64,000 nucleotides of DNA from Sphingosinicella humi (lineage in GTDB: Bacteria > Pseudomonadota > Alphaproteobacteria > Sphingomonadales > Sphingomonadaceae), in NCBI RefSeq assembly GCF_003129465.1, contig NZ_QFFF01000001.1:2279501-2343500 (forward strand), given 5' to 3'. The position numbers were made by a program, and so were the translations under genes. Shown one piece after another: positions 436 to 10,284 of the stretch (positions within the stretch are counted from its first letter, which is position 1; every line of letters begins with the position of its first letter). The notes under the pieces are model-generated. The model was not told where the DNA came from, searched no databases, and worked only from the letters and a program-made list of their open reading frames with translations.

Positions 436-2742
436 TTAGGTCCTGAAGCGCTCGATGGCCTGGGCGAGGGCGACGTAGAGCTTGCCCATGTCCGACGACA
501 GGATCGTCACGCTCAGCGCCGAGCCGTCGGGGTCGACCAGCAGGCGCCGCAGCATCGCTTCGAAGTCGTGGATGTAGCGGTTGACCTGGTCGCGGAACTC
601 GGGCTCGGCTTCATAATGCTGCGCGATCTCGCGCGCTTCGGTCGCGTCGAGCAGACGGACCGCCCGGCGGGTGAAGACACCGCGATCGCCCTTGAGATAG
701 GCGGCCCAGGCACTGTCGGTGACCTCGTTGGACAATATCTTGGTGACGTCGATCGCCGTGGAGTTCAGCGATTCGATCAGCAGCGACACGCGGCGGGAAA
801 GGGCCTCGCCCTCCTTCTCCTGCCGCTCGCGCCGAGCTTCGTCGATGCGGGCTTCGACCGCGGCGGCGCTCTCGCCGAGGGTCACCATCTGCCGCGTCAG
901 CCGTTCCGAAGCCTGGCGCGCCGTCTCGACCGCCCGTTCGGCGACTTCGCCCAATTCGCCCATCTGCCGGCCGACCTCGTCGCCGATGGCCTCGCCGACG
1001 GCCTGGCGACTGGCTTCACCCAGCGCGGCCGCGCTTTCGGGAATGACGGCACTGATCGCCTCGCGCGCCTTCTCCGCCGCCTGGTTGGCGGTGTCGCGGA
1101 CGCGGACCAGCGCGTCGACCAGCTCGCCGGTCGTCTCGCCGACGATCTTCGCGGCCGCCTCGTCAGCTTCGCCGACGGCCAAGGCGAGCGATTGTAGCCG
1201 CGCCTCGGCACTCGCGACGTCGTCATTGATGATGGCCAGCAGCGCCTCCAGCGCCTCGCGCTGCCGCGCGATGCTGTCCTCGGCATAGGTGAGCCTTGAG
1301 GCGGCATTGTCGGCCGTGGCCTCGATCGCGGCGATCTCCGGCACCATGGACGCCGCGGCATCGCGCGTGCGGCCGGCCTGGGCCTCGACCCGCGACAGGG
1401 CGGCGGGCAGCTGGCCGTCGAGCCGGTCGCCGATGGCCGCGAGCGAACGCGCCATTTCCTCGCTGCGATCGATCAGGGCGGCGGCGCGCTCGTGGCTGCC
1501 GCCCAACTCGGCGAACAGCTGCTGCACGCAGCTCCGCACCGTCTCGAACGACCCGGTCATCAGCGCGGCGCCGCTGCTGCCGGCTTCGGTCAGGCGAACG
1601 AAGCGCTGGTCGAGTTCGGTCAATTCCCGGGCGAGCGTGGTGACCAGCGTCTGGCTGGCCGCATCCTGGGCGGCGAGATGGCCGGCGAGCTCCTGCATCT
1701 TGTGGCCGATGCTGTCGAGCCGCTGCGCCACGCTGCGCGCCGCATCCTCGCCCGTCCGCTCGAACGCCGCGCGGCTCTGCTCGAGCAGCGCCAGCATCGC
1801 CTTGCCCTGCTCCTCGATGCCGGCTCGGGCTGCGTCCACGGATTCCGCGGCGCGCGCCATGGTGCCGTCGATCGCCGCCGCCATGCCGGCCGCCGCCTCG
1901 TCGATCCGCCCCGCCGCCGACGCGGTGTTGCTTTCGATCCGGGCGAGCTGGGCGGCGAGCCGCTGCGCCGATCCGCTCGCCACTTCGTCGGCCTCGCGTC
2001 CCCGCGCGATCAGGGCGGAGAGCTGGCTTTCGAGGCCGCCCGCCTGCTCCAGGGCGGCCATGCCGGTCGAGCGCATCGACTCGGCGAGGGATCGCGCCTG
2101 CTCCTCGGCGCGCGGCAGGTCCTGCAGCAGCACGCCGATATCGACTTTCGCCGCATTCGCCGCCGTCTCCAGCGCTTCGGCCTTGCGATCGAGGGTCGCG
2201 GTTTCCTTCGAGAGATAATGGGTCACCCGTCCCAACCGGTCCGACGCCTCGTCGCCCAGCTCCATCAGCTTTGCCGCCTCGCCGGCGAGCCGCGCCTGAT
2301 TCTCTTCGAGTCGCCTGGCGACGATCTCCAGCACGGTCTCCAGGGCTTCGCTTTCGCTCCGCATGCGCACGACGGCACTGGCAAAGCGCTCTGTCTCGCG
2401 CCGCGAGGTGCGTCCGAAGGCGATCCACAAGGCGCAGAGGAGGACGAGCGGCGCGCTGCTGACGGCGATCCACTGCACGACCTCAGTCAGCGGGTAAGGG
2501 GCGCCCGACTGGACGAGCGACCAGGCGGAAACGCCGATCCACGCCAGCGCGAGCAGGGTAAGGCCGATGGGGAAGAGCCGGCCGGGGGAAGGTGTCTCGC
2601 CCGCCGGCTCGACGGGCTCGCCCGCCCATTCCATGCTCTCGGTGGTTTCGCTTTCCGGCTGCGGGCCATTCCACTGGCCCGGGTCGGTGTCGATGATGCC
2701 GTGCTCCGGCCGCGCCTCGGCGCGTTGTGCCCCCGTCGTCAT
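436..2742 (-). CDS. TipN-like membrane-anchored coiled-coil protein
   Basis: This 768-residue protein has a polar N-terminus (about 1-52), two closely spaced transmembrane helices (about 55-75 and 88-110), and then more than 500 residues of Ala/Glu/Arg-rich heptad sequence predicted as coiled coil. The last ~120 residues form a compact, less repetitive domain beginning RVSLLIESLNSTAIDV. Two N-terminal helices plus a long cytoplasmic coiled coil is the architecture of Caulobacter TipN, the new-pole marker. The assignment rests on architecture and a remembered resemblance of the C-terminal block. A generic coiled-coil or methyl-accepting-like protein is the alternative. An AAGG ribosome site lies about 7 bases before the ATG. 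It diverges from the Hpt-like gene. Confidence 0.55.
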   Translation of the reverse strand: MTTGAQRAEARPEHGIIDTDPGQWNGPQPESETTESMEWAGEPVEPAGETPSPGRLFPIGLTLLALAWIGVSAWSLVQSGAPYPLTEVVQWIAVSSAPLVLLCALWIAFGRTSRRETERFASAVVRMRSESEALETVLEIVARRLEENQARLAGEAAKLMELGDEASDRLGRVTHYLSKETATLDRKAEALETAANAAKVDIGVLLQDLPRAEEQARSLAESMRSTGMAALEQAGGLESQLSALIARGREADEVASGSAQRLAAQLARIESNTASAAGRIDEAAAGMAAAIDGTMARAAESVDAARAGIEEQGKAMLALLEQSRAAFERTGEDAARSVAQRLDSIGHKMQELAGHLAAQDAASQTLVTTLARELTELDQRFVRLTEAGSSGAALMTGSFETVRSCVQQLFAELGGSHERAAALIDRSEEMARSLAAIGDRLDGQLPAALSRVEAQAGRTRDAAASMVPEIAAIEATADNAASRLTYAEDSIARQREALEALLAIINDDVASAEARLQSLALAVGEADEAAAKIVGETTGELVDALVRVRDTANQAAEKAREAISAVIPESAAALGEASRQAVGEAIGDEVGRQMGELGEVAERAVETARQASERLTRQMVTLGESAAAVEARIDEARRERQEKEGEALSRRVSLLIESLNSTAIDVTKILSNEVTDSAWAAYLKGDRGVFTRRAVRLLDATEAREIAQHYEAEPEFRDQVNRYIHDFEAMLRRLLVDPDGSALSVTILSSDMGKLYVALAQAIERFRT

Positions 2743-2816: not shown

Positions 2817-3128
2817 ATGGGGCGGATGGTCTATGATCCCGGAGCCCTCGACGCCTCGCTCGCCGCCGCGGTCGGCAGCGACGGCCAATTGATGGGCGAA
2901 CTTCGCGCCGCCTTCGTCGAGAGTGCCGCCCGGCAGGTCGACCTCATGTGCCGCGCCCGCTGCGACGCCAATTGGGAGCTTGCCGCCTCGCGCCTGAAGA
3001 GCGTCGCCGCGAGCTTCGGCGCGCTGGGACTCATCGAACTGGCCGACGAAGCCCTGGCCGGGGCGCCCGGCGATCCGGTCGTCCTTCGAAAGCTCACGCA
3101 AGCCCTGGGCGATTTCAGCGCACCCTGA
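2817..3128 (+). CDS. Degenerate Hpt-like phosphotransfer protein
   Basis: This 103-residue soluble helical protein follows the Hpt pattern: LRAAFVESAARQ...NWELAASRLKSVAASFGALGL. In Hpt domains the fourth-helix motif is AHxLKGxxxxxGA, whose His carries the phosphate. Here the same place reads ASRLKS, so the His is Ser58. If the alignment is right, the protein cannot take phosphate and may act as an inhibitor, scaffold or ligand of a kinase or response regulator. A second ATG at 2826 is an equally possible start. It is divergent from the TipN-like gene, with a 74-bp gap that must hold both promoters. Confidence 0.55.
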   Translation: MGRMVYDPGALDASLAAAVGSDGQLMGELRAAFVESAARQVDLMCRARCDANWELAASRLKSVAASFGALGLIELADEALAGAPGDPVVLRKLTQALGDFSAP

Positions 3129-3203
3129 GCGGAAGCGCTTTGCAAGCGGCCGGGTGCCCGCTTATTCTTGTCCTTTCTTCATTCGGGGAGGGACTTCGGC
3201 CCT

Positions 3204-4397
3204 GTGACTCTGGCCGCTCTCATCTGCGCCTATCATGAAAGCAGCGAGCCCGGCGACGGGCTCCGCGCGACCTTGAAACTGGCCGGCCGCACCGTCGTCG
3301 AGCGCCAGGCGCGCCTCGCCGCGCTGGCGGGGGCGAAGCCGGTCGTGCTCGTCGTCGAGCGCCTGCCGCCGGAGCTCACCGCCGCCATCGACCGCATGCG
3401 CGTCGAGGGCATCGGAGTCGTCGTCGGCCGCAGCGCCTCCGAAGCGGCCGAAGCGATTCCGGCCGACGCCCGGCTGCTGCTGATGAGCGACGGGCTTGTC
3501 GTCGATGAAAGCCATATCGACCGCCTCCTCAAAGCCGAGGCCCCGGCGCTGCTGACCATGGCCGATCATCTCGGCGACGACCGTTTCGAACGGATCGACG
3601 CCGATTCTCGATGGGCGGGCCTGGCCTTGCTGGATGGAACCATATTCCGGCAGACGGCGGCGATGCTCCAGGATTGGGACCTGCAGTCGACCCTGCTCCG
3701 GCGGGCCGTGCAGGCGCACGCCCGGCAGATCGCCGTCAAGGAGACGGGCGAGGAGCATCTGCTGGTCGCCGAGCGCAATGCGGATCTCGAGGAAGCGGAA
3801 GCCCGGATCATCGAAAGCGTCGGCGCCGCGCGCGGAAGCTGGGCTTCGCGGCTCCTCGCGCCGATCGAGCGCGCTGCGACCGGCCTCCTCATGTCGGCGA
3901 CCATCACGCCGGGCGCGATCTACTTCCTCGGCGCCGCGATGACGGGGCTCGGCGCCTATCTGTTCGCGCGCGACTGGATCTGGGCCGGCGCGCTGCTCCT
4001 GCTGCTGGCGACGCCGCTCGACGGTATCGCCGATCGGCTCGCGGCGCTCCGCCTGCTGCCGAGGCCCGGCCGCGTCTGGTGGCGTTTTCTCCTGCCGGTG
4101 CTGTCCGGCGTGGCGCTCGGCACGCTCAGCCTGTCGCTCAGTGAGACACGAGGATGGGGGTGTCTGGCCCTCGCGGCCACCGCTCTCGCTTTCCTCGTCG
4201 CGCTCGACCGGGAGGCGCGGGGGCGCGAGCTGCCGGGCCAGTCGGCGCTCGCCGAACGCAAGGGCATGACCTGGTTGATGCTGCCCTTCGGTCTGGCCGG
4301 ATATTGGGCGATCGGCCTTGCCGCCCTGGCCGCCTATGCGGCCGGCTCCTTCTTCTGGGCGCAGCGGCACGTTCACGAGGCCGATCGGCAAGATTAG
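3204..4397 (+). CDS. Membrane protein with nucleotidyltransferase-like N-terminal half
   Basis: About 397 residues from a GTG start preceded by GGGGAGGG. The first ~210 residues look like a soluble alpha/beta domain. Near the start they carry a KLAGRTVVERQARLAALAGA segment that resembles the sugar/inositol-phosphate nucleotidyltransferase pattern. A later LLLMSDGLVVDES stretch could be its metal-binding strand. The C-terminal half (about 230-390) has five or six hydrophobic helices with a degenerate LDGIADRLAALR motif, weakly like the DGxxAR core of CDP-alcohol phosphatidyltransferases. The layout recalls fused IPCT-DIPPS enzymes, but key motifs are incomplete. I would annotate it as an uncharacterised membrane protein. 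It lies upstream of and collinear with the DUF2336-kinase pair. Confidence 0.5.
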   Translation: MTLAALICAYHESSEPGDGLRATLKLAGRTVVERQARLAALAGAKPVVLVVERLPPELTAAIDRMRVEGIGVVVGRSASEAAEAIPADARLLLMSDGLVVDESHIDRLLKAEAPALLTMADHLGDDRFERIDADSRWAGLALLDGTIFRQTAAMLQDWDLQSTLLRRAVQAHARQIAVKETGEEHLLVAERNADLEEAEARIIESVGAARGSWASRLLAPIERAATGLLMSATITPGAIYFLGAAMTGLGAYLFARDWIWAGALLLLLATPLDGIADRLAALRLLPRPGRVWWRFLLPVLSGVALGTLSLSLSETRGWGCLALAATALAFLVALDREARGRELPGQSALAERKGMTWLMLPFGLAGYWAIGLAALAAYAAGSFFWAQRHVHEADRQD

Positions 4398-4408
4398 CGA
4401 CAGTTTAA
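4394..4408 (+). promoter_or_regulatory. Possible CtrA-like box (TTAG-N7-TTAA)
   Basis: TTAG, seven bases, then TTAA lies 24 bp upstream of the DUF2336-kinase operon. It differs at one position from the TTAA-N7-TTAA consensus bound by the alphaproteobacterial cell-cycle regulator CtrA. The first half overlaps the stop codon of the preceding gene. One such near-match in 64 kb can arise by chance; the context of polarity and kinase-like genes is the only reason to list it. Confidence 0.25.
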
Positions 4409-4432
4409 CCTTGGCCGCGCTATGCGCAGGCG

Positions 4433-5539
4433 ATGGCGGAGAGACGGTCCCAAGGGCAGGGCGGAGATGGCGATGCCGCGCGGCTGCTGCTGGCAGCGGC
4501 GCGCGAGCGCTTCTCCGTGGCCGCAACCGATCTCCTGCTGCCGTCTGAAGCCCGCCTCACCGAATGGCAGCGCCTCACCGCCGCCGCGCTGCTGATCCGC
4601 CTCGTCCGCACCATCGAAGACGCGCTCCGCGCTCGCCTCGCCGAGCATTTCGCCGACCATGACGGGCTACACGCCGCCTTCTCCTCCGCGCATGTCGCCA
4701 TCGCCCAGCCCGTGCTGGAGCGAGCGCAGGTGCTGCGCGATGCGGAGCTCGGCACCGTTCTCGTCCGCCGCGTCGAGGAGCATCGCTTCTGGAAGGAGAA
4801 TGCGCGCAGCGACGATGGGTCGGAGGAATATCTGCTCGACCTTGTCCGCGACCACGATGCGGGCATCGCTTCGGACGCCATGGCCCTGATGATCGCGAGG
4901 AGCCGCCGCTTCGACCAGTTCAACGAACCGGTGATGGGCGAGACGGAGCTGCCGGCCGAGATCCAGCACCGCCTGGTCTGGATGATCGCCGCCGCGCTGC
5001 GCCAATATATGGTCCAGCAGCACGGGCTCGCGTCCGGGCGCGCCGACGCCGCCATCGCGGCCGTCGCGGGCGAGCTCATCGCTTCCTATGACGAGGGGGC
5101 GAGCCTGGAGGCTTGCTCGGTGCGCCTGGCACGGCGCCTCGCCCGCGCCGGTCGCCTCGACGATGCGGTGCTTCAGCTCATTCTGGAGGACGGTCTGCTG
5201 CCGCTCTTCATCGCCGCCATCGGCGTGCGCGCCGGTCTCGATTATCCCGCCGCCTGGGAGGTGTTGTCGGACCCGCGCGGCAGAGGGCCCGCCCTCCTGC
5301 TTCGGGCCGCCGAGGTGGAGCGCGATCAGGCCGCAGGGATATTGCTCGTCCTCAACAGCCGGGGGCGCATGTTCTCCGGCGCCGAAGGCAATGCCGCGGC
5401 CCGGCAGCTCGACCTGTTCGAAGCCACCGACGAGGCCGCCGCGCGCGACGTGCTTCGCCTCTGGCAGGTCGATCCCGGCTATCGCGCCGCCGTGGCGCGC
5501 CTCTCGACCCGTGCCCGTTCCGTCGCGGAGGCCGCATGA
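4433..5539 (+). CDS. DUF2336 domain protein
   Basis: This 368-residue, largely helical, Ala/Leu/Arg-rich soluble protein lacks a signal peptide. Blocks such as EEYLLDLVRDHDAGIAS and AEIQHRLVWMIAAALRQYM followed by repeated short helices match the pattern of DUF2336, a family found mainly in alphaproteobacteria and often coded near sensor kinases. No catalytic motif is visible, and HEAT-like helical repeats are likely. Its stop overlaps the start of the next gene (ATGA), so the two proteins are translationally coupled and probably work together. A CtrA-like site lies just upstream. Confidence 0.7.
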   Translation: MAERRSQGQGGDGDAARLLLAAARERFSVAATDLLLPSEARLTEWQRLTAAALLIRLVRTIEDALRARLAEHFADHDGLHAAFSSAHVAIAQPVLERAQVLRDAELGTVLVRRVEEHRFWKENARSDDGSEEYLLDLVRDHDAGIASDAMALMIARSRRFDQFNEPVMGETELPAEIQHRLVWMIAAALRQYMVQQHGLASGRADAAIAAVAGELIASYDEGASLEACSVRLARRLARAGRLDDAVLQLILEDGLLPLFIAAIGVRAGLDYPAAWEVLSDPRGRGPALLLRAAEVERDQAAGILLVLNSRGRMFSGAEGNAAARQLDLFEATDEAAARDVLRLWQVDPGYRAAVARLSTRARSVAEAA

Positions 5540-6930
5540 GCGCGCAGCATCGCCCGGAAATGCCGCTTGTCGTCGGACGGGTCGATCGCGAAGGGCGGCT
5601 GGTGGCGGCCGATCCCGCGCTCGCCGGCCTGCACGCGCGGGCTGGAGGACGGGAAGGGGGCGCCCTCGCCATCCCGCAGGTCGCCTCGCTCGCCCGCCTG
5701 TCGCGCCGGCTTGGCATCGTCATTTCCCGCGCCGTCATCGCCGCTGATGGGGACCGCGACCTCGATCTTTGGGTGCGGGCGGAGCCGATCGAAGACGGCG
5801 TGACGCTCGCCATAGGCGGATGGACCGAACGCCCGGCCCGTGCCCCCGCCGACGTCGGCGAAGGCGAGCGCGAGGCCGATTTCCTCCGCGCCACGGCCGA
5901 CTGGATGTGGGAGACCGACGAGGCGCTCCGCTTCACGAGCCTTACCGCGGCCGCCGCGGCGGCGATCGGCAAGACGCCCGCCGATCTCATCGGCAAGCAG
6001 CTTACCCGCCTGTTCCGTTTCCAGGAAGGCGAGGATGGCGCGCTTCCGATCCTTACCGCGCTTGCCGAAAAGCGCCGCTTCGACGACCAGTTTGCCGAGC
6101 TCCGCTCCGGCAGCCAGGCCCGATACCGGTTGAGCGGTGTGCCGTTGATCGACGGCGCCGGCCGTTTCGCGGGCTTTCGCGGCGCCGCGGCAAGCCTTCC
6201 CAAATGGCTGCCCTCGGCGCCCGCCAACGACGCCGCCCCGGCTCCGCCGCCGGTCAAGGAGTCTCCCGCTTTCGGGGAACGGCTCGACAAGGCGCTGCGC
6301 GACCCGCTCGACCATATCATCGCCGCCGCCGAGACGATCGGCGCGCAGCCCGATGGACCGCTCCGCCGCGACTATGCCGGCTATGCCGAAGACATTGCCG
6401 CCGCCGGGCGCCATCTTCTGGCGCTGGTCGACGATCTCGTGGATCTCCAGGCTATCGAAAGGCCGGATTTCGCGCCTGAAGCCGAACCCATCGACCTCGC
6501 CGATGTCGCTCGCCGGGCCGCGGGACTTCTCTCGGTCCGCGCCGGCGATTCAAACGTGACGATCGACCGACCGGCGGACGACGAGGCGCTGCCCGCCACC
6601 GGCGATTTCCGGCGCGCGCTCCAGATCGTCATGAACCTCCTCACCAACGCCCTTCGCTATTCGCCCGAAGGCGGGATGGTCTGGATACGCTGCGACCGCG
6701 AGGACGATCTCGCCGCCGTCGTCATCGCCGATCAGGGCAAGGGCATCGCCCCCGATGATCAGGCGCGCATCTTCGACAAGTTCGAGCGGGTCGACCCCAC
6801 CGAGCCGGGCGGCACCGGCCTCGGCCTCTACATCGCGCGGCGCCTCGCGCGCTCGATGGGCGGCGACATTTCCGTCGACAGCGCGCCGGGGCAGGGCGCG
6901 CGCTTCACCTTCACTCTGCCGCTGCGGTAG
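5536..6930 (+). CDS. PAS-sensor histidine-kinase-like protein without phospho-acceptor His
   Basis: 464 residues with no transmembrane segment. A PAS domain lies at about 115-220 (FLRATADWMWETDEALRFT). A dimerisation helix follows at about 245-310 and an HATPase domain at about 355-464. The HATPase looks intact: N box NLLTNALRYSPEGG, G1 box DQGKGIAPDD, F box IFDKF and G2 box GGTGLGLYIARRL. In the dimerisation helix the usual SHELRTPL reads DKALRDPL, placing Lys252 where the His should be. It should therefore bind ATP but not autophosphorylate in the normal way. Caulobacter DivL, with Tyr at this place, is a precedent for a pseudokinase-type regulator. It is coupled to the DUF2336 gene by a 4-bp overlap. 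Confidence 0.8.
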   Translation: MSAQHRPEMPLVVGRVDREGRLVAADPALAGLHARAGGREGGALAIPQVASLARLSRRLGIVISRAVIAADGDRDLDLWVRAEPIEDGVTLAIGGWTERPARAPADVGEGEREADFLRATADWMWETDEALRFTSLTAAAAAAIGKTPADLIGKQLTRLFRFQEGEDGALPILTALAEKRRFDDQFAELRSGSQARYRLSGVPLIDGAGRFAGFRGAAASLPKWLPSAPANDAAPAPPPVKESPAFGERLDKALRDPLDHIIAAAETIGAQPDGPLRRDYAGYAEDIAAAGRHLLALVDDLVDLQAIERPDFAPEAEPIDLADVARRAAGLLSVRAGDSNVTIDRPADDEALPATGDFRRALQIVMNLLTNALRYSPEGGMVWIRCDREDDLAAVVIADQGKGIAPDDQARIFDKFERVDPTEPGGTGLGLYIARRLARSMGGDISVDSAPGQGARFTFTLPLR

Positions 6931-6995
6931 GCGGAGGAACCTCGGCATCGGGCAAAGGTTACCCAGTCCATCCACGCGGCGGAGGAGAGGCCCGG

Positions 6996-7670
6996 ATGGA
7001 CATCAAGGAAAGGCGCGGTAACGGCGAGGGCGATGCGCTTCAGAGGGCACTGGTCGGCGCCACAGCGGTAGCCGCGGCGGCCGGCGCAGCCTTATTCATC
7101 GGCAGCAAATTGCGGTCGGGCCGCGGTGAGCCCTGGATCAGCGATGCCCCGCGCTCCACCCGACGCGGCCGCAATTCCCTGATCGGAAGAACGGTGACGA
7201 TCGCAAAGCCGGCCCAGGAGATCTACGACTTCTGGCGCGATTTCTCCAACCTCGCCCAGGTGATGGAGAATGTCGAGCGGATCGACGTGATCGATCAGCG
7301 CCAGTCGCACTGGGTGGTGAAGGCGCCGGGCGGCTCAACGGTCGAATGGGATTCGGTCGTGACCGAGGATGAGCCCAGCCGCCTCATCGCCTGGGAGTCG
7401 ACGAAAGGGTCAAACATTCGAAACTCCGGACGCGTCGAGTTTCTCGACGCGGCGCCGGGGCGCGGCACCATGGTGCGCCTCACCATGGTCTATGATCCGC
7501 CCGGCGGGACGGCAGGCCGGTTGGTCGCCAAGCTGCTCCAGCGCGAACCGGCCGAACAGGCGCGGCGGGATTTGCGGCGTCTGAAGCAGTTCCTCGAAAC
7601 CGGCGAGATCACCAGCTCCACCAGCCCCTCCGGGCGCCGATCGGAGTCGCCCGCCAAGCAGTATATCTAG
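6996..7670 (+). CDS. SRPBCC family protein with N-terminal membrane anchor
   Basis: 224 residues from an ATG with a GGAGGAG site. Residues 18-36 form a hydrophobic helix ([19 protein letters not shown]) that probably anchors the protein. Residues about 58-205 form an SRPBCC/START-like fold, seen from the pattern [19 protein letters not shown], a later VVKAPGG...[12 protein letters not shown] strand pair, and a C-terminal helix rich in Arg and Leu. Such COG5637-type proteins bind hydrophobic ligands or assist membrane stress responses; the substrate is unknown. It precedes the alcohol dehydrogenase by 11 bp, so the two are likely one operon. Confidence 0.75.
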
Positions 7671-7681
7671 GAGAGAGATCC

Positions 7682-8872
7682 ATGCGCGCGCTAACCTGGC
7701 AGGGCCGGCACGACGTCCGTGTCGAGACCGTCCCCGACCCTGAGATCGTCAATCCCCGCGACGCCATCATCAGGATCACCTCTACCGCCATCTGCGGCTC
7801 CGACCTTCATCTTTACGACGGCTATATCCCGACGATGCGGGCGGGCGACATTCTCGGCCACGAGAATATGGGCGAGGTGGTCGAAGTCGGCGCCAAGAGC
7901 CCGCTCAAGAAGGGCCAGCGCGTCGTCATCCCCTTCACCGTCTCCTGCGGCGACTGCTTCTTCTGCAAGAAGCAGCAATATTCCGCCTGCGACAACGCCA
8001 ATCCCGCGACCACGTCCGACATGTCGGAGACCCTCTACGGCTATCCGATGGGCGCGGCGCTCGGCTACGCGCACCTCACCGGCGGCTATGCCGGCGGCCA
8101 GGCCGAATATCTGCGCGTCCCCTATTCGGATGTCGGCCCGATCGTCATCCCGGACGGGCTCGAGGACGACAAGGTCCTCTTCCTCTCCGACATCCTTCCC
8201 ACCGGCTGGATGGCGGCGGAGAATGCCGAGATCGAGGAGGGCGATACAGTCGCCGTCTGGGGCTGCGGCCCGGTCGGCTTGTTCGCGATCCAGTCGGCGC
8301 TGATCATGGGCGCGCACAAGGTGATCGCCATCGATCATTACGCCGCGCGCCTGGATCTGGCGAAGCGGCTCGGCGCCGAGATACTCGACTATCGCGAAGT
8401 CGACGTCCGCGAAGCGCTGTTCGAGATGACCGGCGGCATCGGTCCGGACGCCTGCATCGACTGCGTCGGCATGGAAAGCCACGGTCTCGGCATCGACAAT
8501 CTCGTCGACACGGCCAAGGCGCACACCTTCCTCGGCACCGATCGTCCCGCCGCGCTTCGCCAGGCGATCCTCGCCTGTCGCAAGGGAGGGCGCGTGTCCG
8601 TCCCCGGGGTTTACGGCGGCATGGCCGACAAATTCCCGATCGGCGCCTTCATGGAAAAGGGCCTGACGCTGAAAACCGGCCAGACCCACGTCCAGAAATA
8701 TTCGCAAAAGCTGCTGGAGATGATCGGCGAGGACAAGATCGACACGACCTTCCTCATCTCCCACCACGCCAGCCTGGAGGAAGGGCCGTCGATGTACCGC
8801 CACTGGCACGACGATCAGGACGAATATACCAAGATCGTGCTGAAGCCTGGAATGGAGCGAGTGGCCGCCTGA
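7682..8872 (+). CDS. Zinc-dependent alcohol dehydrogenase (MDR family)
   Basis: 396 residues with an AGGAGAGAG site before the ATG. Medium-chain dehydrogenase features are complete. The catalytic zinc ligands are in [11 protein letters not shown] and [13 protein letters not shown] structural-zinc lobe is [16 protein letters not shown]. The Rossmann NAD-binding motif is [15 protein letters not shown], followed by an acidic residue in VIAIDHY, suggesting NAD+. The long lobe after the structural zinc and the overall length resemble glutathione-independent formaldehyde-dehydrogenase-like enzymes. The substrate cannot be read from the sequence; aldehyde or alcohol detoxification is a reasonable inference given the stress-related neighbours. 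Confidence 0.88.
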
Positions 8873-8996
8873 TGGCTATCGCGGCCGGTCCCCACTTTGG
8901 CACGAAACGAGGGTTGTCTGTCATTTCTGCCGGAGCCGCTCAGCATTAGATTCCTTCCATGGGCCGGACATCCAGCCGGCCGGAATGGAGGACCAG

Positions 8997-9137
8997 ATGT
9001 TGTATCGGACCGGATTTCAGCAGCTTGCCTCGGGCACCTTCGCCTTGCTGCTCGCCATCGTCTTCGTCGGGGCCGCCGTCGCGCCGGCGGAAAGCGTCGA
9101 GGCCGCGTCGATCAGCCGCACCTGCCTCCTCGCCTGA
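8997..9137 (+). CDS. Small membrane or exported protein (46 aa)
   Basis: A 46-codon frame starts at an ATG five bases after GGAGG. It encodes MLYRTGFQQLASGTFALLLA, more hydrophobic residues, then an AVAPAES stretch that could be a signal-peptidase site, and a short tail ending in TCLLA. It resembles short sphingomonad proteins that are mostly one hydrophobic helix. Its function is unknown. It lies alone between the alcohol dehydrogenase and the GlxA-type regulator. The good ribosome site and the hydrophobic helix argue for a real gene; the short length keeps confidence moderate. Confidence 0.5.
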   Translation: MLYRTGFQQLASGTFALLLAIVFVGAAVAPAESVEAASISRTCLLA

Positions 9138-9231
9138 GGGAGGTCGGCATGTCTTGTGAATGGCCGTTCCGCCGCTCGTCCGGCAGGGGTATGCTGGACG
9201 GGGGCGGGCGGCATCCGGATCGGAGGGTGCG

Positions 9232-10284
9232 ATGAATGGCGAAGTGAAACGGGTCGGTGTCGTCCTGTTCGACGACACCGATCTGCTCGATTCCGTCGGA
9301 CCGGTGCGCGTCTTCCACAGCGCGGCCTGCCAGCTTCAGCGGATCGGCGCGGCGAGCGAGCCGCTCTACGCGATCGATCTCCTGTCCCGCTTCGGCGGTA
9401 TCGTCAAGAGCTCGATCGGCTTCGGGCTCGAAACCAAGCCGCTGCGGGAGCTCGACGTGGGGGATTACGACACCCTCCTCGTCTCCGGCGGCGGCGTCGA
9501 TGACGCAAATTGCGACCCCGAGGTCGTCGCTTGGCTCCGGCGCAATCATGACAAGGTCAGGCGGCTGGGTTCCACCTGCACAGGCGCCTTCGTCCTCGCG
9601 GCTGCGGGGCTCCTCGACGGGCGACGCGCCGCCACCCACTGGGCCTATTGCGACCTGCTCCAGGCCAGCTTTCCCGAGATCGATGTCGATCGGGACTCCA
9701 TCTTCGTCGAGGATCGCGGCTTGTGGACCTCGGCTGGCGTCACGTCGGGCATGGATATGGCGTTGGCGATGATCGAGGAGGATCACGGCCGCGATCTCGC
9801 CCTGCTCGTTGCCCGGATGATGGTGATCTTCCTGAAGCGGCCCGGCGGCCAGTCGCAGTTCAGCACGCCGCTGAAGAGCCAGTCGGTCGAAGGCCCGATG
9901 GCGCCGCTGCTCCACTGGATCGCCGAAAATCCCGCCGCGGACCTTCGCACCGCGATACTGTCCGAGCGCGCTCATATGAGCCTGCGCAACTTCTACCGCT
10001 CGTTCGAGGAAGCGACGGGCACGTCGCCGGCCGAATGGGTCGAGGAGGTGCGTATGCAGGTCGCCAAGCGCCTGCTGGAGCACACCGTCTATCATATCGA
10101 TCAGATCGCCTTGAAGGCGGGCTTCATGACCTACGAGCGCATGCGCCGCGCTTTCGCCCGGCGCATGGGCGTCAGCCCCGCCGCCTATCGCGCCCGCTTC
10201 ACCCGTCCGTCCCGATCGGCCGATCTCGCGCTGCTCGCCGGCGCCATCGGGACAAGCGAGCCGATCCTGCCGACCATGCAATAG
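9232..10284 (+). CDS. GlxA-type transcriptional regulator (DJ-1/PfpI + AraC HTH)
   Basis: About 350 residues from the ATG at 9232, which follows GGAGGGT and gives a better N-terminus (MNGEVKRVGVVLFDD) than the in-frame start at 9160. The N-terminal ~200 residues are a DJ-1/PfpI-like class I amidotransferase fold with the nucleophile-elbow Cys116 in STCTGAFVLAAAGLL. The C-terminal ~130 residues hold two helix-turn-helix units of the AraC type (MSLRNFYRSFEEATGTSPAE and the second around IDQIALKAGF). Such regulators sense a small metabolite and activate nearby catabolic or stress genes. It reads toward the cysteine synthase and may control the sulfur/thiol genes downstream; this is inference. 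Confidence 0.88.
   Translation: MNGEVKRVGVVLFDDTDLLDSVGPVRVFHSAACQLQRIGAASEPLYAIDLLSRFGGIVKSSIGFGLETKPLRELDVGDYDTLLVSGGGVDDANCDPEVVAWLRRNHDKVRRLGSTCTGAFVLAAAGLLDGRRAATHWAYCDLLQASFPEIDVDRDSIFVEDRGLWTSAGVTSGMDMALAMIEEDHGRDLALLVARMMVIFLKRPGGQSQFSTPLKSQSVEGPMAPLLHWIAENPAADLRTAILSERAHMSLRNFYRSFEEATGTSPAEWVEEVRMQVAKRLLEHTVYHIDQIALKAGFMTYERMRRAFARRMGVSPAAYRARFTRPSRSADLALLAGAIGTSEPILPTMQ

Follow-up and report, generated by a model that had tools for sequence, protein, structure and literature searches.

A conserved sensor pseudokinase of sphingomonads, derived from a DUF2336-linked histidine kinase, that probably acts through protein contacts

To our knowledge, pseudokinases of the histidine kinase class are known mostly as single cases, namely DivL, NifL and CSK. 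In active HisKA kinases, the acidic residue that follows the phospho-acceptor His and the Thr or Asn at +4 serve catalysis and phosphatase activity, respectively. DivL, present in Caulobacter and in sphingomonads, is a HisKA protein without the phospho-His, in which T557 and Y562 (positions +7 and +12) are required for DivK binding (PMC4211667). NifL of Azotobacter vinelandii is kinase-like and binds ATP/ADP without phosphotransferase activity, and the complex that it forms with its partner protein is strengthened by ADP (PMC12998174, PMC3466315, PMC9866876). In plant CSK, the His is replaced by Tyr, Gln or Glu and ATP is still bound (PMC5054060).

We compared with these systems a gene from a window of 64,000 nucleotides of the Sphingosinicella humi genome, in which all positions below are given. 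The gene (5536..6930, + strand) encodes a His-less HisKA-type sensor pseudokinase of 464 amino acids with a PAS-PAS-DHp-CA architecture, as defined from the open reading frame, Pfam, alignment and a structure model, and its start codon overlaps the stop codon of an upstream DUF2336 gene by four bases (ATGA). Pfam detects PAS_4 at residues 122-213 and HATPase_c at residues 357-463 (E 1.2e-30); HisKA stays below threshold (18.2 bits vs a cut-off of 26.9), with a match starting at profile position 13, that is, without the start of the H box. In a HisKA scan of the whole genome, the protein is the last and weakest of 19 matches. The AlphaFold2 model has a mean pLDDT of 88, with an uncertain domain arrangement (pTM 0.49). 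It displays a PAS-like domain at residues 12-100 (5569..5835, +), predicted from the fold only (pLDDT ~95) with no Pfam match, a second PAS domain at residues 109-221 (5860..6198, +), found by both Pfam and the model, a DHp helical hairpin at residues 246-308 (6271..6459, +) and a CA domain at residues 317-463 (6484..6924, +). Foldseek with this model retrieves kinases and, as second-best match, the NifL-NifA complex (9qq6, E 2.4e-18). The N (364-377), G1 (399-404), F (412-418) and G2 (425-434) boxes of the CA domain are all conserved, as the first-pass annotation had stated from the sequence alone, and the key residues N367/N371, D399/G401/G403, F413/F416 and G428/G430 are in place.

The pseudokinase motif FGERLDKALRDPLDHII aligns without gaps with FLAAMSHELRTPLNAII of orthologues, and its helix FGERLDKALRDPLDHIIAAAE aligns likewise with FLAAMSHELRTPLNAIIGFAE of relatives. 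Lys252 (codon AAG, 6289..6291, +) thus stands at the site of the phospho-acceptor, with no shift in the alignment, which confirms both the colinearity and the missing phospho-His reported in the first pass. The accompanying catalytic residues are also replaced, by Ala253 at +1 and Asp256 at +4. In the first ~55 sphingomonad orthologues, drawn from two collections, His is absent from the acceptor site in all. We then enlarged the set to 133 distinct kinases; the derived, sphingomonad group accounts for 104 of them. His is replaced in 101 of these 104 by eleven different residues (R 24, P 21, K 16, Q 14, A 11, E 4, T 3, D 3, N 2, V 2 and S 1, with His in 3), and this recurrence in both sets shows that the missing His is not a sequencing artefact. 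Tyr is found at this position in no pseudokinase orthologue. Few positions of the helix vary as much as this one, which leaves no room for a functional “Lys variant”; on these counts, Lys itself is without significance. The proposal of a DUF2336-linked Lys-variant pseudokinase therefore holds for the pseudokinase and its DUF2336 linkage, whereas the special role of Lys falls, this residue being not fixed (16 of 104). Glu at +1 is missing from every derived sequence (84 have Ala), and position +4, Thr in the active orthologues, is taken by more than ten different residues. Leu254, Arg255, Pro257, Ile261 and Ala265 are retained in the derived group, consistent with a preserved helix and dimer core. 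The three sequences with His (L186, L192 and L193, genus g46) carry it in a degenerate context, IDHSFKP; a sister sequence reads IDRSFKP and the HELRTPL context is missing, which points to drift rather than to a kinase motif. Note that this His is a trap for automatic annotation.

By contrast with the pseudokinase, orthologues from other families of the order and from several basal genera of the same family carry MSHELRTPL in 29 of 29 cases. These DUF2336-linked PAS histidine kinases (e.g. L079-L097 and L126-L134) are orthologous by gene-pair position and by sequence, with DUF2336 directly upstream of the HELRTPL kinase in 27 of the 27 loci long enough to test, and should, judging from their motif, be active. 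His at this position in orthologues, which the first-pass annotation had regarded as counter-evidence, is therefore indeed found, but in distant orthologues of other families, and it indicates a derived loss, not a misreading. On a maximum-likelihood tree computed on helix 2 plus the CA domain, with helix 1 left out, the His state corresponds to a single change. A 73-row core of the His-less group has a support of 96; the branch splitting the His-less from the His-bearing rows has an SH-aLRT of 40, the low value being due to two long rows placed there, L135 (His) and L141 (Asp). Overall, the pseudokinase is real, conserved and derived and, as read from this tree, His was lost once, early in the sphingomonad family. 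A genome titled Microvirga sp. SRT01 (L059) lies inside Sphingomonas on the kinase tree, has the same gene cluster and is probably mislabelled.

The gene neighbourhood varies along the tree. Several His-bearing pairs come after flgL (L217 at 3343-9288, L216, L079 and L080), and in L216 and L217 apparently after flgK as well (names assigned by eye), pointing to an ancestral flagellar link. The intermediate genus g106 and L221 have, in their wider surroundings, inositol-phosphate-synthase-like and Wzi-like genes (by eye) and the NTP-transferase-like relative. The pair of the derived group stands mostly beside genes for coiled-coil, HPt-like and NTP-transferase-like proteins.

We next compared the positional variability of the two groups. 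Residues 247, 248, 252, 256, 259, 260, 263 and 264, together with 396, are invariant in the active orthologues and variable in the pseudokinases, and those from 247 to 264 line a single face of helix 1, the exposed face that is degenerate in the window protein. The mean entropy of the H box reaches 1.15 bits in the pseudokinases vs 0.08 in the active orthologues, although the mean pairwise identity is higher in the pseudokinase set (65% vs 58%). The relaxation is confined to helix 1: the conserved helix 2 (0.80 vs 0.92), the F box with the lid (0.89 vs 1.20) and G2 (0.30 vs 0.49) vary no more in the pseudokinases than in the active set, and the N box is about equal (0.76 vs 0.67). N371, D399, G401, G428 and G430 are invariant in the 100 derived sequences, out of 100, that cover them; G1 is altered in a few lineages, with G403 changed in 5 of 100. 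These counts suggest that selection acts on the ATP-site residues but not on the phosphotransfer chemistry.

The upstream gene (4433..5539, + strand) encodes a DUF2336 protein of 368 amino acids (Pfam, 98.8 bits vs a cut-off of 34.6), the only one in the genome. Its identity as SpbR was rejected, with 56.8 bits vs an NCBIfam equivalog cut-off of 400; the open-access literature yielded no paper naming DUF2336, nor one naming SpbR together with PopZ and Caulobacter. The structure model is confident and all-helical (pLDDT 90, pTM 0.88). It has no Foldseek match among solved structures at E <= 0.001, and a second structure comparison gave weak helical matches, with Z 5.6 at best. DUF2336 adjoins the pseudokinase in most derived loci. 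However, at least six scattered sequences keep the pseudokinase without it (L047, L049, L055, L172, L173 and L214); there, the NTP-transferase-like gene abuts the pseudokinase and leaves no room for DUF2336. An obligate pair is thus excluded by the several lineages that lost DUF2336, and another partner must exist; the DUF2336 protein remains the first candidate, though the pseudokinase can do without it. Note that the DUF2336 profile finds only 100 over 298 genomes, since it misses adjacent diverged copies, hence we did not take co-occurrence counts as evidence. In genus g6 (L261-L263), DUF2336 lies beside a short kinase-like frame of ~250-280 amino acids, too short for both PAS domains.

Three other genes complete the cluster. 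An HPt-like protein of 103 amino acids (2817..3128, +) is recognized by alignment and by a sub-threshold Pfam Hpt match (15.8 bits), such that its membership is not secure. It lacks the phospho-His and reads AASRLKS where AHxLKG is expected, with Ser at the His position; its orthologues have other residues there and His in none of the aligned rows (L043 being a poor match). Where the flank is long enough, most sphingomonad loci have this gene next to the pseudokinase cluster. That an HPt-like protein and a kinase, both conserved and both without His, are encoded so close together is worthy of note, as a lead only. The gene at 3168..4397 (+, tentative TTG start), also a conserved neighbour, encodes a protein with degenerate motifs, made up of an NTP-transferase-like N-terminal half and a hydrophobic C-terminal half that resembles, by eye, CDP-alcohol phosphotransferases. 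In L218 and L221, its relatives are found close to genes of the inositol-phosphate-synthase-like and nucleotidyltransferase types, which suggests an origin in inositol-lipid synthesis. A coiled-coil protein of 768 amino acids (436..2742, − strand) is a conserved divergent neighbour.

DivL, which the first-pass annotation had cited as precedent, belongs to the same broad class of HisKA proteins without His and is matched in the PDB both by profile (4q20, E 2.5e-29) and by fold. A DivL-like protein would sense a phosphorylated response regulator via the docking face of the DHp domain and modulate CckA, and CckA-like and ChpT-like genes are present in the genome, the CckA-like hybrid kinase (L112) being named by resemblance. 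However, DivL itself was found as a separate gene (G000:C1:2580860-2583214, 785 aa, SYELRTPL), and orthology with the pseudokinase is therefore excluded. In 30 DivL orthologues of the family, the Tyr, the Glu at +1 and T+7, G+11 and F/Y+12 are essentially invariant, whereas the pseudokinase has Lys at the acceptor position, has lost the Glu and varies at the positions of the docking face. With so variable a face, a DivL-type readout through helix 1 is unlikely on sequence grounds, and our search found no link of the pseudokinase to CckA or PleC. The precedent thus stands as to a HisKA domain without His and fails as to mechanism. Somewhat less improbable, if still rather unlikely, is a CA domain that has kept its kinase activity and acts in trans on another protein, phosphorylating either a hetero-partner kinase or a residue other than His. 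The ATP-site residues and the lid are conserved as in the active orthologues; nevertheless, the HPt-like protein, which would be the obvious candidate acceptor within the cluster, has no His either, and the conserved face of helix 1, on which the CA domain normally docks to phosphorylate, is lost.

An inactive remnant in the course of being lost would account for the absence of both genes from the small genomes G007 and G019 (same genus) and G028, and for the strong divergence or truncation seen in some lineages. We consider such decay very unlikely, since 253 of 298 genomes have a match at E <= 1e-40, mostly <= 1e-100 (with His, or paralogous, in a minority of cases), and since the frame is intact in most of the family with an invariant ATP site and a conserved helix 2. 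Hardly credible is an active kinase using another nearby His under a shifted alignment, the other point that the first pass had set against its own reading. H260 and H293 do lie nearby in the window protein, but the alignment is gapless, position 260 is His in only 12 of the 104 derived sequences and mostly Arg, and H293, in helix 2, is invariant in active kinases with a normal His too, and is thus not a replacement acceptor. These observations on H260 and H293 exclude an alternative His in place of the lost one.

The reading that we favour, and hold to be probable, is that of a signalling pseudokinase with predicted nucleotide binding that acts by protein contacts and whose output does not involve phosphotransfer. 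An ancestral DUF2336-linked PAS histidine kinase would have lost, once, its phospho-acceptor His along with the Glu for catalysis and the Thr for phosphatase activity. The PAS domains, together with an ATP/ADP pocket that was kept, may then set the conformation of a presumably dimeric, inactive DHp-CA core, the output of which would be the non-covalent binding of partners in the manner of NifL, most likely of the DUF2336 protein from the overlapping upstream gene and of at least one other. Given the likeness to NifL, this is the most economical mechanism, and the best reading places the pseudokinase nearer to NifL than to DivL. Both share the PAS-PAS-DHp-CA order (PAS1 of the pseudokinase coming from the model only), and each is encoded beside a presumed partner. 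The GHKL domain of NifL binds nucleotide without phosphotransfer, a property predicted for the pseudokinase, and PAS1 of NifL carries FAD. They differ in that the partner of NifL is the activator NifA, whereas the neighbour here is a DUF2336 protein and not a NifA, and in that the H domain of NifL is described as having a conserved His (PMC9866876), which the pseudokinase lacks. CSK, from plants and green algae, is likewise a descendant of active kinases in which the His gave way to several residues, but it belongs to an unrelated lineage with unrelated partners, and its CA boxes are modified, unlike those of the pseudokinase. A broader scheme, which we put forward as doubtful, is a silent phosphorelay in which the His-less kinase and the HPt-like protein, with the DUF2336 protein, the relative of inositol-lipid enzymes and the coiled-coil protein, would form a sphingomonad-specific, nucleotide-gated contact switch.

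In this family, a single loss can be located on a tree. Active orthologues encoded in the same gene pair fall to one side of it, and at least 100 inactive ones to the other. The comparison shows which surfaces are needed only for phosphotransfer, the face of helix 1, and which are needed for something else, the ATP site and helix 2. Why pseudokinases retain ATP binding can thereby be tested directly, by setting active orthologues against matched inactive ones.
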